Source: Roseomonas marmotae
Lineage (GTDB): Bacteria > Pseudomonadota > Alphaproteobacteria > Acetobacterales > Acetobacteraceae
Direction of reading: 5' to 3'
Assembly: GCF_017654485.1 (NCBI RefSeq)
Contig: NZ_CP061091.1
Coordinates: forward strand, 691,001 to 755,000
DNA: 64,000 bases
The translations under genes and the position numbers were made by a program. The notes beneath the pieces were generated by a model, which made no database searches, was not told the origin of the DNA, and saw nothing but the letters and a program-made list of their open reading frames with translations. Each line of letters opens with the position of its first letter. Within the stretch, counting starts at the first letter, position 1. Below are positions 10,980-16,450 of the stretch, piece by piece.

Positions 10980-12293
10980 ATGACCGATACCATCTTCGCC
11001 CTGGCGTCCGGCGCGGGCCGGGCCGCCATCGCGGTGCTGCGGCTCTCCGGCAGTGGGACAGGGGAGGTGCTGCGCCGCCTGGCCGGCCCTCTGCCGCCGC
11101 CACGCCTTGCCAGCCTGCGGCGCTTGCGGGCGCCTGGGGATGACGAGTTGCTGGACGAGGCGCTGGTGCTCTGGTTCCCGGGGCCGCGCAGCTACACCGG
11201 AGAGGCCTCGGCGGAACTACACCTCCATGGCGGGCGCGCCGTGCTGGAGGGTGTCAGCAATGCCCTGCTGGCACTCGGTGCCCGGCCGGCGGAGCCGGGG
11301 GAATTCACCCGCCGCGCCTTCCTGAACGGAAGGCTGGACCTGACGGCAGCCGAAGGCATCGCCGACCTGATCGATGCCGAGACCGCCGCGCAACGGCGGC
11401 AGGCGCTGCGGCAGGCGGGCGGCGCGCTGGCGGAGCGTTATGCCGGCTGGGCCGGGCGTCTGACGCGGCTGCTGGCACATCAGGAAGCCGCCATCGAATT
11501 CGCCGAGGAAGGGCTGCCGAATAGCCTGGAGGACGAGATGCGCGCCGGCGCCATGTCCCTGGCCGCCGAGATCCGCGCGCATCTGGATGATGGCGGGCGC
11601 GGGGAGCGGCTGCGGGAAGGGGTCTGGGCCGCCATCATCGGTGCGCCCAATGCTGGGAAAAGCTCGCTGCTGAACGCCCTGGCAGGGCGCGATGCCGCCA
11701 TCGTCTCCTCCACCGCCGGCACCACGCGGGACGTGGTGGAGGTGCGGCTGGAACTGGCGGGCGTGCCGGTGCTGCTGGCCGATACCGCCGGGTTGCGCGA
11801 AACCGTGGATGACATCGAGGCCGAGGGTGTCCGCCGCGCGCGCCGGCAGGCGGAGCAGGCGGATCTGGTGCTGGCCGTCTTCGCGGCCGATCAGACGCCG
11901 GATGCGGAGACGCTGGCGATGGTGGCGCCAGGGGTAGTGGTCGTGGCCAACAAGACGGACCTGGCCGCCGCTCCGGCCGGGATCGGCGGCGTGGCGCCGC
12001 TGGCTGTTTCCGCCCGGACCGGCGCTGGCATGGACAGGCTGCGGGCAGCCCTGACCGAAGCCGTGGCGGCCCGGGCCGGACTGACGGCGGAAGCGGGACT
12101 GACCCGGCCCCGGCATCGCGCCGCGCTGGACGAAGCCGCGGGCTGGCTGGATGAGGCGGCGGCGGCCCCCTTGCCGGAACTGGCTTCCGAAGCCCTGCGG
12201 GCAGCGCTGCGGGCGCTGGGGCGGCTGACCGGGCGTGTCGGCGTCGAGGATGTGCTGGACGTCGTCTTCGGGGATTTCTGCATCGGAAAATGA
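10980..12293 (+). CDS. mnmE: tRNA modification GTPase MnmE
   Basis: This 437-residue protein works with MnmG to install the 5-carboxymethylaminomethyl group on wobble U34 of certain tRNAs. The N-terminal formyl-THF-binding domain begins MTDTIFALASG. The inserted G domain has the Walker A stretch GAPNAGKSS and DTAGLRE. The protein ends in the invariant FCIGK with its essential cysteine. It is followed 24 bases later by its partner mnmG, and a ribosome site (ACAGGAA) precedes the ATG. Confidence 0.97.
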   Translation: MTDTIFALASGAGRAAIAVLRLSGSGTGEVLRRLAGPLPPPRLASLRRLRAPGDDELLDEALVLWFPGPRSYTGEASAELHLHGGRAVLEGVSNALLALGARPAEPGEFTRRAFLNGRLDLTAAEGIADLIDAETAAQRRQALRQAGGALAERYAGWAGRLTRLLAHQEAAIEFAEEGLPNSLEDEMRAGAMSLAAEIRAHLDDGGRGERLREGVWAAIIGAPNAGKSSLLNALAGRDAAIVSSTAGTTRDVVEVRLELAGVPVLLADTAGLRETVDDIEAEGVRRARRQAEQADLVLAVFAADQTPDAETLAMVAPGVVVVANKTDLAAAPAGIGGVAPLAVSARTGAGMDRLRAALTEAVAARAGLTAEAGLTRPRHRAALDEAAGWLDEAAAAPLPELASEALRAALRALGRLTGRVGVEDVLDVVFGDFCIGK

Positions 12294-12317
12294 CGCGGGG
12301 GCGGTATACCCCGTGGC

Positions 12318-14183
12318 ATGCGCGACATGAATTTCGATGTGGTGGTGGTAGGCGGCGGCCATGCCGGCACCGAAGCCGCCGCCGCCGCCGCCCGCTGCGG
12401 CGCCCGGACCCTGCTGCTGACCCACAAGCTGGAGACGCTCGGCGAGATGTCCTGCAACCCCGCCATCGGTGGCGTGGGCAAGGGGCATCTGGTGCGCGAG
12501 ATCGATGCCCTGGACGGGCTGATGGGGCGTGCCGCCGATGCGGCCGGCATCCATTTCAAGCTGCTGAACCGCAGCAAGGGGCCGGCGGTGCGCGGCCCCC
12601 GCGCCCAGGCCGACCGCAAGCTCTACCGGCAGGCGGTGCAGGCGCTGCTGGCGGAGCAGGCCAACCTGACCATCCTGGCCGTGGCGGCCGAGGGGATCGA
12701 GCGCGACGGCGCCGGGCGTATCTGCGCCGTGCTGACGGCCGATGGCGCGCGCATCGCCTGCGGCGCACTGGTCATCACCACCGGCACCTTCCTGCGCGGG
12801 GAGATCCATATCGGCGAGACGCGCATCCCGGCCGGGCGGGTGGGGGATGCGCCCTCCGTCGGACTGGCCCTGGCCATCGAGGCGCTCGGCCTGCCGATGC
12901 GCCGGCTGAAGACCGGCACGCCGCCGCGCCTGGATGGCCGGACCATCGACTGGGCCAGCCTGGAGATGCAGCCGGGCGATGCGGAGCCGGAGCCGCTCTC
13001 CTGGATGACGGAGCGCATCACCAACCCGCAGGTGCAATGCGGCATCACCTCCACCACGCCGGAAGGCCATGCGCTGATCCGCGCCAACCTGCACCGGGCG
13101 CCGATCCATTCCGGGCAGATCCAGGGCGTGGGGCCGCGCTACTGCCCCTCGATCGAGGACAAGGTGGTGCGCTTCGCCGAGCGGGAGCGGCACCAGATCT
13201 TCCTGGAGCCGGAGGGGCTGGACGACCCCACCATCTATCCCAACGGCATTTCCACCAGCCTGCCGGAGGATGTGCAGCGCGCCTTCATCGCCTCCATCCC
13301 CGGGCTGGAGAAGGCGGTGATCCTGCGGCCGGGCTATGCCATCGAGTATGATCATGTGGACCCGCGCGCACTGAAGCCGACGCTGGAGGTGAAGGCGGTG
13401 CCCGGCCTTTTCCTGGCGGGGCAGATCAACGGCACGACCGGCTATGAGGAGGCCGGCGCCCAGGGGCTGCTGGCGGGGCTGAACGCAGCGGCGCTGGCGA
13501 GTGGTGCTGCGGGGCGCTGCCTCTCCCGCACCGAGGCCTATCTGGGCGTGATGGTCGATGACCTGACCCTCCAGGGCGTGAGCGAGCCCTACCGGATGCT
13601 GACCGCCCGGGCCGAGCACCGGCTGGCGCTTCGGGCTGACAATGCCGGACTGAGGCTGACGGAGACCGGTATCGCCTGGGGCTGCGTCGGCACCGGGCGC
13701 GCGACGCGGTACCGCCGCTTTGCCGCCGAGGTGGCCGAAGCCCTGGGCCGCGCGCGCGCCGAGGGTGGAACCCCGGCGGCGCTGCAGGCGGCGGGCATCG
13801 CCATCAACCAGGATGGCCGCTGGCGCAGCTTGCTGGAGGTGCTGGCCCTGCCGGAGCTGGACAGCGCGGCGCTTGAGCAGGCTTTCCCCTGGCTGCGCGA
13901 CCTTCCGGCTGGCGTGCGCCTGCAGGTGGAGGCCGAGGCACTTTACGCCCCCTATCTCCAGCGGCAGGCAGCCGAGCTGCGGATGATCGAGCGGGAGGAA
14001 CGAACCGCCATCCCTTCTGGACTGGACTTCTCGGCCATCCCCGGCCTTTCCAACGAAATGCGCCAACGGCTTTCCACGGCACGTCCTCCCACCCTTGGGG
14101 CGGCGGGGCGTCTGGCGGGTATTACGCCCGCGGCCATGGCCGCGCTGGCGGTGCATCTGCGCAAGACGGAGCGTTTCACGTGA
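12318..14183 (+). CDS. mnmG: tRNA uridine-5-carboxymethylaminomethyl synthesis enzyme MnmG
   Basis: This 621-residue FAD protein (GidA) is the partner of MnmE in U34 modification. It opens with the dinucleotide-binding motif [14 protein letters not shown]. Other family marks are [31 protein letters not shown] and the C-terminal helical region. The start is at 12318 or the ATG at 12327; neither has a strong ribosome site. Its last codons contain the first parS site, and its stop overlaps the GTG of rsmG. Confidence 0.97.
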
Positions 14184-14186
14184 AAC
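14173..14186. other. parS site 1 (ParB-binding)
   Basis: GTTTCACGTGAAAC is a perfect 14-bp palindrome identical to the core of the canonical bacterial parS centromere. It spans the end of mnmG and the first codons of rsmG, about 1.4 kb upstream of parB. It should be bound by the ParB encoded here. Confidence 0.9.
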
Positions 14187-14800
14187 AGGACCATGCCCTG
14201 ACCCTGCCGCCACTCGATGTTTCACGTGAAACGCTGGCGCGGATCGAGGCCTTCGTGCCGCTTCTGCTGCGCTGGAACGAACGGATTAACCTGATCGCCC
14301 CCACCACGGAGGCCGTGCTGCGGCAGCGTCATGTTGCCGATTCCCTGCAACTGCTGCCACTGATCCCGCCGGGTGAGGGGGCGGTCGGGGATCTCGGCAG
14401 CGGGGGCGGCTTTCCTGGGCTGGTGCTGGCCATGGCGCTGGAGCGCTCGGTGCATCTGGTGGAAGCCGACCGCCGCAAGGCCGCCTTCTTGCAGACGGCC
14501 GCAGGGGAGCTGGGGTTGACCCATGTGCGGGTGCATGCCGCGCGTATTGAAGCCGTCAGCCTGCCGCCGCTGGCTGTGCTGACTGCGAGAGCGCTCGCGC
14601 CTCTCGAGAGGATGCTGCCTTGGGCGGAGCGTCTGCTGGCGCCCGATGGTGTCGCTATCTTCCCCAAGGGGCGCAGCGCCCTGGAAGAGATGGAGGCTGC
14701 CGCCCTGGGCTGGACAATGACCGCCGAGCGGTTCAAGAGCACCACTGACGCCGAAGCTTCCATTTTCCGTCTGACCAGGATTCGCCGTGCCGGGGCCTGA
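14180..14800 (+). CDS. rsmG: 16S rRNA (guanine527-N7)-methyltransferase RsmG
   Basis: This 206-residue SAM-dependent enzyme methylates G527 of 16S rRNA (GidB). Visible motifs are [12 protein letters not shown], the SAM loop [14 protein letters not shown] and [11 protein letters not shown]. The best start is the GTG at 14180, which overlaps the mnmG stop (GTGA); no in-frame ATG lies near. The N-terminal codons V-S-R-E-T are themselves the second parS site. The gene overlaps parA by 14 bases. Confidence 0.94.
14219..14232. other. parS site 2 (ParB-binding)
   Basis: A second perfect copy of GTTTCACGTGAAAC, here preceded by T, lies inside rsmG with its centre 46 bases from that of site 1. It encodes V-S-R-E-T in the rsmG frame, so the site and the protein are constrained together. 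Confidence 0.9.
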
Positions 14801-15605
14801 CCGCACAACACGCCGCATCGCGCTTGCCAACCAGAAGGGCGGGGTGGGCAAAACCACGACCGCCATCAATCTGGCCACCGCCTTGGCCACCAAGAAACGT
14901 GTCCTGGTTATCGACCTGGACCCGCAGGGCAATGCCTCGACCGGCCTTGGACTGCCGCGCGCTGACCGGGGCTCCGGCAGCTATGCCCTGCTGGTGGGTG
15001 AGCGTCCGCTCGGCGAGCTCATGCAGGCTACCAAGGTTCCCAACCTCTTTCTGTTGCCGGCCGACAACGATCTGGCGGGGGCGGAGATCGAGCTGGTGGG
15101 GATGGAAAACCGGGAGAGGCGGCTGCGGCAGGCGCTGGACGCGGCGTCCGAAACCCTGGCGAGCTTCGACTTCATCCTGATCGACTGCCCGCCTTCGCTC
15201 GGCCTGCTGACGCTGAATGCCCTGGTGGCCGTGCAGTCCGTGTTGATCCCGCTGCAGACAGAGTTCTTCGCGCTGGAAGGGGTGTCCCAGATCACCCGCA
15301 CCATCGAGCGGGTGAAGCGCGCGCTGAACCCGACGCTCAGCCTGGACGGCATCGTGCTGACGATGTTCGACCGCCGTAACAACCTGTCCGAGCTGGTGGC
15401 GAATGACGTGCGCGCCTTCTTCCGCGACAAGGTCTTCGAGACGGTGATCCCGCGCAATATCCGCGTCAGCGAGGCGCCATCCCATGGCCTGCCTGTGCTG
15501 CTCTACGACATGAGATCCACCGGCGCCCAGGCCTATATCAAGCTGGCCGCCGAGTTGCTGCGGCGCGAACGCGCAGCCGCCAAAGCCGCGGGAGCGAAGG
15601 CATGA
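14787..15605 (+). CDS. parA: chromosome-partitioning ATPase ParA (Soj)
   Basis: This 272-residue Walker-type ATPase segregates chromosome origins with ParB. The deviant Walker A box KGGVGKTTTAINLA lies near residue 18, with DLDPQGNAS and the Walker B stretch FILIDCPPSLG following. It starts at a GTG at 14787 that overlaps the end of rsmG, and its stop overlaps the parB start (ATGA). Confidence 0.97.
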   Translation: MPGPDRTTRRIALANQKGGVGKTTTAINLATALATKKRVLVIDLDPQGNASTGLGLPRADRGSGSYALLVGERPLGELMQATKVPNLFLLPADNDLAGAEIELVGMENRERRLRQALDAASETLASFDFILIDCPPSLGLLTLNALVAVQSVLIPLQTEFFALEGVSQITRTIERVKRALNPTLSLDGIVLTMFDRRNNLSELVANDVRAFFRDKVFETVIPRNIRVSEAPSHGLPVLLYDMRSTGAQAYIKLAAELLRRERAAAKAAGAKA

Positions 15606-16450
15606 GCGGACGCAAACCCTCCCGTCTCGGCATGGGGCTCTCGGCTCTGCTGGGCGACCAGCCGGCCCCGCCCGCCAGCGGCGCCACGCCCCGCACGCTG
15701 CCCGTGGAGGCGCTGGAGCCGGGCCCTTTCCAGCCGCGCGGGCCGATCGACCAGTCCGGGTTGGCGGAACTTGCGGCTTCCATCCGCGAGCATGGCGTGC
15801 TGCAGCCTATCCTGGTCCGTCCCAAGCCCGGCGCCCCCGGCACCTACCAGATCATCGGCGGCGAGCGGCGCTGGCGGGCCGCGCAGCTGGCGCAGCGGCA
15901 TGATGTGCCCGTCATCATCCATGAGTTGGATGACCGCGCCGCCATGGCCGCAGCGCTGGTGGAGAACCTGCAGCGCGAGGATCTGAACGCGCTGGAGGAA
16001 GCCCAGGGCTATCGCCGCCTGACTGATGAATTCGGCCTGACGCAGGAGCATCTGGGCCGCGCCGTCGGCAAGAGCCGCAGCCACGTGGCCAATACCCTGC
16101 GCCTTCTCGCCCTGCCGCAGAAGGTGCGGGAGATGATGGCCCGCGGCAGCCTCTCCGCCGGCCATGCCCGCGCGCTGCTGACGGCGCCTGATGCGGTGAA
16201 GCTGGCGGAGCTGGTGGTGACGCGCGGGCTGAACGTGCGCCAGACCGAGGCGCTGGCCGCCGCCGCCGAGCGCCAGAAGCCCGCGAAGGCCGAGGATGCG
16301 GATACCAAGGCCCTGGAGCGTGACCTGACCGTCAAGCTGGGGCTGAAGGTGGCGGTGCGCCATGGCCGGCGCGGCGGCCAGATCACCATCGGCTACAAGG
16401 ACCTGGATCAGCTGGATGCGCTGATCCGCCTCCTGACCCCCAGTGGTTAG
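15602..16450 (+). CDS. parB: chromosome-partitioning protein ParB (Spo0J)
   Basis: This 282-residue CTP-dependent DNA clamp loads at parS. The N-terminal nuclease-like domain shows GERRWRAAQLA and ENLQREDLNALEEA. The helix-turn-helix region covers TQEHLGRAVGKSRSHVANTLRLLALP. A C-terminal dimerisation segment follows. It is coupled to parA and is the last gene of the block, convergent with holA across a 68-base gap. Confidence 0.97.
   Translation: MSGRKPSRLGMGLSALLGDQPAPPASGATPRTLPVEALEPGPFQPRGPIDQSGLAELAASIREHGVLQPILVRPKPGAPGTYQIIGGERRWRAAQLAQRHDVPVIIHELDDRAAMAAALVENLQREDLNALEEAQGYRRLTDEFGLTQEHLGRAVGKSRSHVANTLRLLALPQKVREMMARGSLSAGHARALLTAPDAVKLAELVVTRGLNVRQTEALAAAAERQKPAKAEDADTKALERDLTVKLGLKVAVRHGRRGGQITIGYKDLDQLDALIRLLTPSG

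Follow-up and report, generated by a model that had tools for sequence, protein, structure and literature searches.

Two perfect parS sites at the mnmG–rsmG junction of Roseomonas marmotae, lying wholly in coding DNA, very probably form an ordinary ParABS centromere to which ParB is predicted to bind. Comparison with related genomes points further, with good though lesser confidence, to the near-invariant VSRET of RsmG, an rRNA methyltransferase, being a ParB-binding site in disguise across the class, kept by chromosome segregation, with the protein following shifts of the site. As part of this second reading, the site would over evolution have occupied all three reading frames: as VSRET, as FHVK with a start codon inside, and as Phe-Thr-stop. 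The interpretation of the initial annotation, which had taken the repeats as segregation sites under simultaneous constraint from two reading frames, is supported.

The parS sites and their surroundings

The window, the whole 64,000-nucleotide stretch analysed here, is part of contig C1 (3.57 Mb). The features concerned are as follows.

10980..12293, plus strand: mnmE, first gene of the mnmE-mnmG-rsmG-parA-parB series
12318..14183, plus strand: mnmG (gidA); TIGR00136, 748 bits
14168..14171, plus strand: GGAG, Shine-Dalgarno-like by inference, 8 bases upstream of the GTG start
14170..14235, plus strand: 18-base perfect inverted repeat, arms 14170–14187 and 14218–14235, predicted to pair in the mRNA over the rsmG start
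14173..14186, no strand assigned: parS site 1, perfect 14-base palindrome GTTTCACGTGAAAC
14180..14800, plus strand: rsmG (gidB), with its GTG start inside parS site 1; TIGR00138, 123.5 bits
14219..14232, no strand assigned: parS site 2, perfect 14-base palindrome GTTTCACGTGAAAC
14787..15605, plus strand: parA (ParA-type ATPase); Pfam AAA_31 and CbiA
15602..16450, plus strand: parB, with ParB_N, HTH_ParB and ParB_C domains; TIGR00180

A scan of the sequence confirmed the two copies at 14173–14186 and 14219–14232, with centres 46 bases apart, and the gene coordinates place them as the initial annotation had described, site 1 over the mnmG stop and rsmG start and site 2 in RsmG as VSRET. The central bases of site 1, GTGA, hold both the rsmG start (GTG, 14180–14182) and the mnmG stop (TGA, 14181–14183), in different frames, and the same site spells the last mnmG codons, Phe-Thr-stop. 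This GTG is the first ATG, GTG or TTG in the rsmG frame past the preceding stop in the open reading frame listing. Site 2 reads GTT TCA CGT GAA AC and supplies RsmG codons 14–18 (V14-S15-R16-E17-T18); in nine genes of the window these codons are used rarely (GTT 6/256, TCA 4/165, CGT 29/345 and GAA 60/265). Constraint by two reading frames at once is thus literally true of site 1; at site 2 the DNA constraint dominates, according to the comparison given below. On the minus strand a 1002-codon open frame (11217–14225) lies antisense across mnmE, mnmG and the beginning of rsmG, and is probably an artefact of the G+C-rich sequence.

Measured against the published 16-base consensus TGTTNCACGTGAAACA (PMC2346475, excerpt), each site matches the core at 14 of 14 bases and the long form at 15 of 16, the single deviation being C in place of the first T at site 1 and G in place of the last A at site 2. 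Noc-binding sites (NBS) differ from parS at bases 1 and 6 (PMC7383237, excerpt); both sites carry the parS bases G1 and A6 and are not of the NBS form. No third match to GTTTCACGTGAAAC was found at up to three mismatches in the 64-kb window, and sites 1 and 2 are the only matches at zero or one mismatch in the whole assembly (4,833,053 bases, 10 contigs). The genome-wide search for the 14-mer gave two copies in 4.83 Mb, both at this junction; the scattered, unlinked copies that would have spoken against the segregation reading were absent. The reversed pattern, taken as a control, had no match in the whole assembly, and composition arithmetic at 70% G+C gives an expectation of ∼0.002 chance copies per genome. 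Four more places in the assembly differ from GTTTCACGTGAAAC by two mismatches and could be weak binding candidates.

The sites stand just ahead of parA and parB, as had been noted, and both genes lie directly downstream with their domains intact. In ParB, R159 and G187 were paired with the published residue numbers Arg 173 and Gly 201 of Caulobacter by a constant offset of 14; arginine and glycine at these two positions go with parS-type rather than Noc-type recognition (PMC7383237, excerpt), and the recognition region of the window ParB thus appears to be of the parS type.

Distance from the replication origin

The initial annotation also placed the window near the replication origin. By GC skew this holds, and the sites show the origin proximity of chromosomal parS: the cumulative skew minimum of a 195-kb stretch (560–755 kb), over which the curve is shallow and noisy, lies at C1:680,824, 24 kb from the sites. 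As nearness to dnaA it does not hold, since dnaA is at C1:284–1684, 705 kb from parAB and the parS sites. A survey of the chromosome with twenty 20-kb samples and the window gave negative skew at 1, 360 and 540 kb, positive skew from 691 kb to 2.34 Mb and negative skew again from 2.52 to 3.24 Mb, the sign switching between 2.34 and 2.52 Mb; the values at 180 kb and 3.42 Mb were slightly positive. The skew minimum is also ∼680 kb from dnaA. As a result of both distances, the origin is probably not adjacent to dnaA.

Seven DnaA-box matches at up to one mismatch occur in the 195 kb. Two of the boxes are perfect (C1:615,872 and 615,905) and lie ∼90 kb away; DnaA boxes were set aside as a marker of oriC.

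ParB-CTP loads at parS, slides onto the flanking DNA and is moved by ParA. As known for the ParB family, ParB-CTP would be predicted to load at each of the two sites and to spread, and ParA would then pull the ParB-parS complex, segregating the origin region. Sites 1 and 2 likely form the entire centromere of the chromosome.

Codon usage at the RsmG pentapeptide

Among 200 genomes of the family Acetobacteraceae, 161 contain the exact 14-mer and one the reversed control. RsmG was found in 192 of the 200, and 150 loci were taken, the window's own included; the nearest relatives with a name are Acetobacteraceae bacterium AT-5844, whose RsmG is 78% identical, and Pararoseomonas baculiformis. V[SP]RET is present at the expected place in 101 of the 150 loci and absent from it in 49. 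Its spelling is GTTTCACGTGAAAC in 88 loci, GTTCCACGTGAAAC in 12 and GTCTCACGTGAAAC in one, so that 100 of the 101 conform to GTT[T/C]CACGTGAAAC. The family and class counts throughout concern loci related by descent, and are hence not counts of independent events.

Between positions −450 and +600 of rsmG in the 150 loci, exact sites fall 95 times in frame 0 (VSRET), 82 times in frame 2 (F-H-V-K, which includes a GTG in frame) and once in frame 1, which would place a stop in rsmG. Fourteen of the frame-2 sites make an ATG using the first G of parS, six are preceded by an in-frame ATG at a greater distance and the other 62 lack one. At 45 of the 82 an open frame of at least 100 codons ends on the parS TGA, like mnmG in the window, and the stop-and-start layout of site 1 thus recurs in the family. 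At least two exact sites were present between −90 and +75 in 51 loci, one in 75 and none in 24; seven of the first 130 loci had no site at up to two mismatches between −600 and +2300, one of which (L125) carries an altered palindrome described below. Most parS-bearing genomes of the family have one to three copies; in two genomes (G196 with 14 copies and G178 with 10) exact parS sites are scattered over contigs.

The same codons are fixed across the class, which the two named relatives identify as Alphaproteobacteria. RsmG was found in 256 of 289 class genomes, from which we took 82 loci outside the family (66 families, by hand count of labels) from the upper part of the 256 ranked by similarity to the window RsmG; this choice raises the share of VSRET and leaves its codon spelling unaffected. 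V[SP]RET occurs in 74 of the 82, spelled as exact parS in 70, with GTTCC in one, as GTTTCCCGTGAAAC in two and as GTTTCGCGCGAAAC in one, and hence as GTT[T/C]CACGTGAAAC in 71 of 74. The commonest codon for V, S, R and E accounts for shares of 0.97, 0.92, 0.99 and 0.99 in the class codon alignment and 0.96, 0.91, 1.00 and 0.96 in the family. The fifth codon extends past the 14-mer by its third base, and its share is 0.79 in the class and 0.64 in the family; at the other conserved RsmG columns the share is mostly 0.3–0.8 and at most 0.90, the highest value belonging to a TTG leucine close to the gene end. Synonymous positions at the site are thus fixed beyond those of the rest of rsmG, as in a coding site under DNA constraint, and the codons, which the initial annotation had proposed to follow through the family, stay fixed in the whole class as well.

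A second codon-locked stretch lies near the 3′ end of rsmG in the relatives (family alignment column 185, class column 212; about 14680–14725 in the window). It reads GAA-TTG-AC(C/G), ∼15 bases ahead of TGG-ACA-ATG, and resembles the −35 and −10 elements of a parAB promoter embedded in rsmG. The leucine at this stretch is encoded by TTG in 130 of 144 family cases and in 61 of 68 from the class; the window has ATG instead.

Altered and relocated sites

The frequent change of S to P in V[SP]RET falls on the N position left free in the published consensus (PMC2346475, excerpt). In other lineages both arms of the palindrome have changed together, giving GCTTCACGTGAAGC, GCGTCACGTGACGC and GTTTCGCGCGAAAC. 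The first is found at three loci (L119, L135, L155), where the VSRET frame reads ASREA (L135, L155) and the other frame LHVK (L119, L135); the second, at L125, reads ASRDA in the VSRET frame. GCTTCACGTGAAGC is present in 12 of the 200 family genomes. Three of them lack the canonical 14-mer and carry GCTTCACGTGAAGC at rsmG sites only (both copies in G002 and G182, the single copy in G039); in the remaining nine the copies were found elsewhere or not placed against rsmG. One genome (G019) has GCTTCACGTGAAGC arrays with a 42-base period on contigs C330, C434 and C465, with 10 copies in the genome and the canonical 14-mer absent.

The place of parS in rsmG is not obligatory. Two loci (L291, L317) have parS 48 bases upstream, and the old place reads VADQT and VSDQA; in two genomes (G028, G115) a one-mismatch site lies ∼3.2 kb upstream and RsmG reads VSPDL or MTPEL. 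Where parS has moved, the RsmG pentapeptide is gone. As an outgroup we took another class of the same phylum (centre G488), where 60 of 61 genomes yielded an RsmG and 30 loci were compared. None of the 30 has VSRET near the RsmG N-terminus, so that RsmG has been conserved in that class in its absence. A parS at up to one mismatch instead lies by the rsmG end in 28 of the 30 loci, the other two having none in the locus: 11 of these sites are just ahead of the stop, in the VSRET frame, eight supply the rsmG stop by their own TGA, and nine are up to 32 bases downstream of rsmG.

At residue 163 (window numbering) of the ParB recognition helix, Ala occurs in 103 of the 120 loci that have a canonical site, in 7 of 8 with GTTCC only and in 5 of 13 with another site or none, counts which leave out loci without a ParB match and in which lineages are not independent. 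Put the other way, it is non-Ala in 8 of the 13 loci lacking a canonical rsmG parS, versus 17 of the 120 that have one. The pattern is suggestive of co-evolution of this residue with the form of parS.

The alternative that RsmG needs V-S-R-E-T as a protein motif at a helix start, with the DNA identity merely following, is disfavoured by these data, and we regard it as very unlikely. The motif is at least 90% conserved in 42 RsmGs chosen for alignment. In the AlphaFold2 model (mean pLDDT 92.3, residues 1–3 below 50) the first helix spans residues 16–36, and Ser15, directly preceding it, is its predicted N-cap. In addition, 3 of the 74 class loci and 1 of the 101 family loci keep VSRET despite synonymous changes, and a preference on the side of the protein may thus persist to some degree. 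However, synonymous variation is nearly absent at the site and common elsewhere in rsmG, residue changes fall on the degenerate position of the DNA site and occur as palindromic pairs, 40 of the 149 family loci in the alignment have varied residues here, unlike VSRET or anything close to it, and none of the 30 RsmGs of the other class has the motif near its N-terminus. The Pfam GidB and TIGR00138 matches start at residues 20 and 23, both past VSRET. Because of the codon lock, the loss of VSRET at loci with a relocated parS and the palindromic co-change of the arms, selection on the DNA is likely to be the main force keeping the five residues across the class, with the need of the protein secondary. 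RsmG would tolerate the imposed residues: with the helix starting at residue 16, VSRET would make an acceptable cap, at a place where imposed residues do little harm.

Pairing between the sites and possible regulation

A mainly regulatory role, in which ParB at site 1 or the 18-bp hairpin controls the expression of rsmG or parAB, or couples the translation of rsmG to mnmG, has in our estimate a slight probability. The predicted mRNA fold has an 18-bp perfect stem over the rsmG start (z −2.0; 9 of 200 shuffles fold as well), although any two identical palindromes can pair. The flanks of paired sites are also more complementary than those of permuted pairs (77 pairs), most clearly in the outer three bases, at 1.33 versus 0.91 (0 of 5000 permutations) for the 69 pairs that remain once L141, L145 and all pairs spaced over 70 bases are dropped. 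Site 1 alone, however, has a self-complementary flank excess of similar size (1.25 versus 0.99), site 2 having none, and the flanks may accordingly reflect composition or a longer palindrome; the hairpin is not claimed as a selected feature. The recurrent closing of long open frames by the parS TGA, and the M. bovis BCG parS that overlaps a gidB promoter (PMC2346475, excerpt), would fit regulation. Against it, half of the family loci (75 of 150) and 65 of the 82 class loci have a single exact site between −90 and +75, and a simple scan of 14000–14900 found no promoter-like or terminator match near the sites.

The two loci removed above (L141 in G077, L145 in G144) have two parS sites upstream of rsmG within a long inverted repeat, flanked by AATCCACAG / CTGTGGATT, which we take to resemble DnaA boxes.

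That some other DNA-binding protein recognises the palindromes, or that they are repeats arisen by chance, is hardly credible: ParB binding to them is here a prediction, but the exact parS core stands beside parAB in two copies only, with ∼0.002 expected by chance per genome, and the sites are conserved across the class.

Discussion

The centromere reading puts the window among known ParABS systems. It shares the 14-base core with those of B. subtilis and Caulobacter crescentus, its sites lying beside parAB and, by skew, close to the origin. Livny 2007 is reportedly a survey of parS positions. Whereas Caulobacter has a cluster, parS1–7, ∼8 kb from ori (PMC5815017, excerpt), the window has two sites only, 46 bases apart and both coding. 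Two genomic sites, one of them at the gidB 5′ end, also accompany the mycobacterial gidB/parA pair; in M. bovis BCG, however, parA holds the second site, while the first overlaps a gidB promoter (PMC2346475, excerpt), unlike the window, where both are at the mnmG–rsmG junction and one contains a stop and a start codon. Hyphomonas neptunium likewise has two consensus parS upstream of parAB, and its ParB bound a parS oligonucleotide in vitro (PMC6650430, excerpt, in which the host gene of the sites is not stated).

Intragenic parS has already been published. In Pseudomonas aeruginosa nine of ten parS sites are predicted to be intragenic (PMC4368675, excerpt), Caulobacter parS sites lie ‘within essential genes’ (PMC5815017, excerpt), and work on repABC plasmids has put forward the hypothesis of positive selection for parS lying in coding sequences (PMC9040568, excerpt). 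The excerpts for P. aeruginosa and Caulobacter describe neither a class-wide locked codon position nor an effect on protein evolution (PMC4368675, PMC5815017). An incomplete literature search found, judged by titles and the opening lines of abstracts, no earlier account of a class-wide codon lock of parS in rsmG, and the papers listed for the pentapeptide have unrelated titles. As far as this search shows, the class-wide codon lock and the evidence of RsmG following the DNA are new.

Conservation in a protein is usually taken to reflect the function of that protein. For the five well conserved RsmG residues a DNA segregation site is the better explanation, and motif-based inference on RsmG would thus mislead. 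Deletions of rsmG in such bacteria may also remove centromere sites. With two sites 46 bases apart that likely make up the whole centromere, this chromosome would offer a minimal system for ParB loading, and the lineages with altered palindromes would provide a natural series for ParB-parS co-evolution, of which RsmG would be the readable record.
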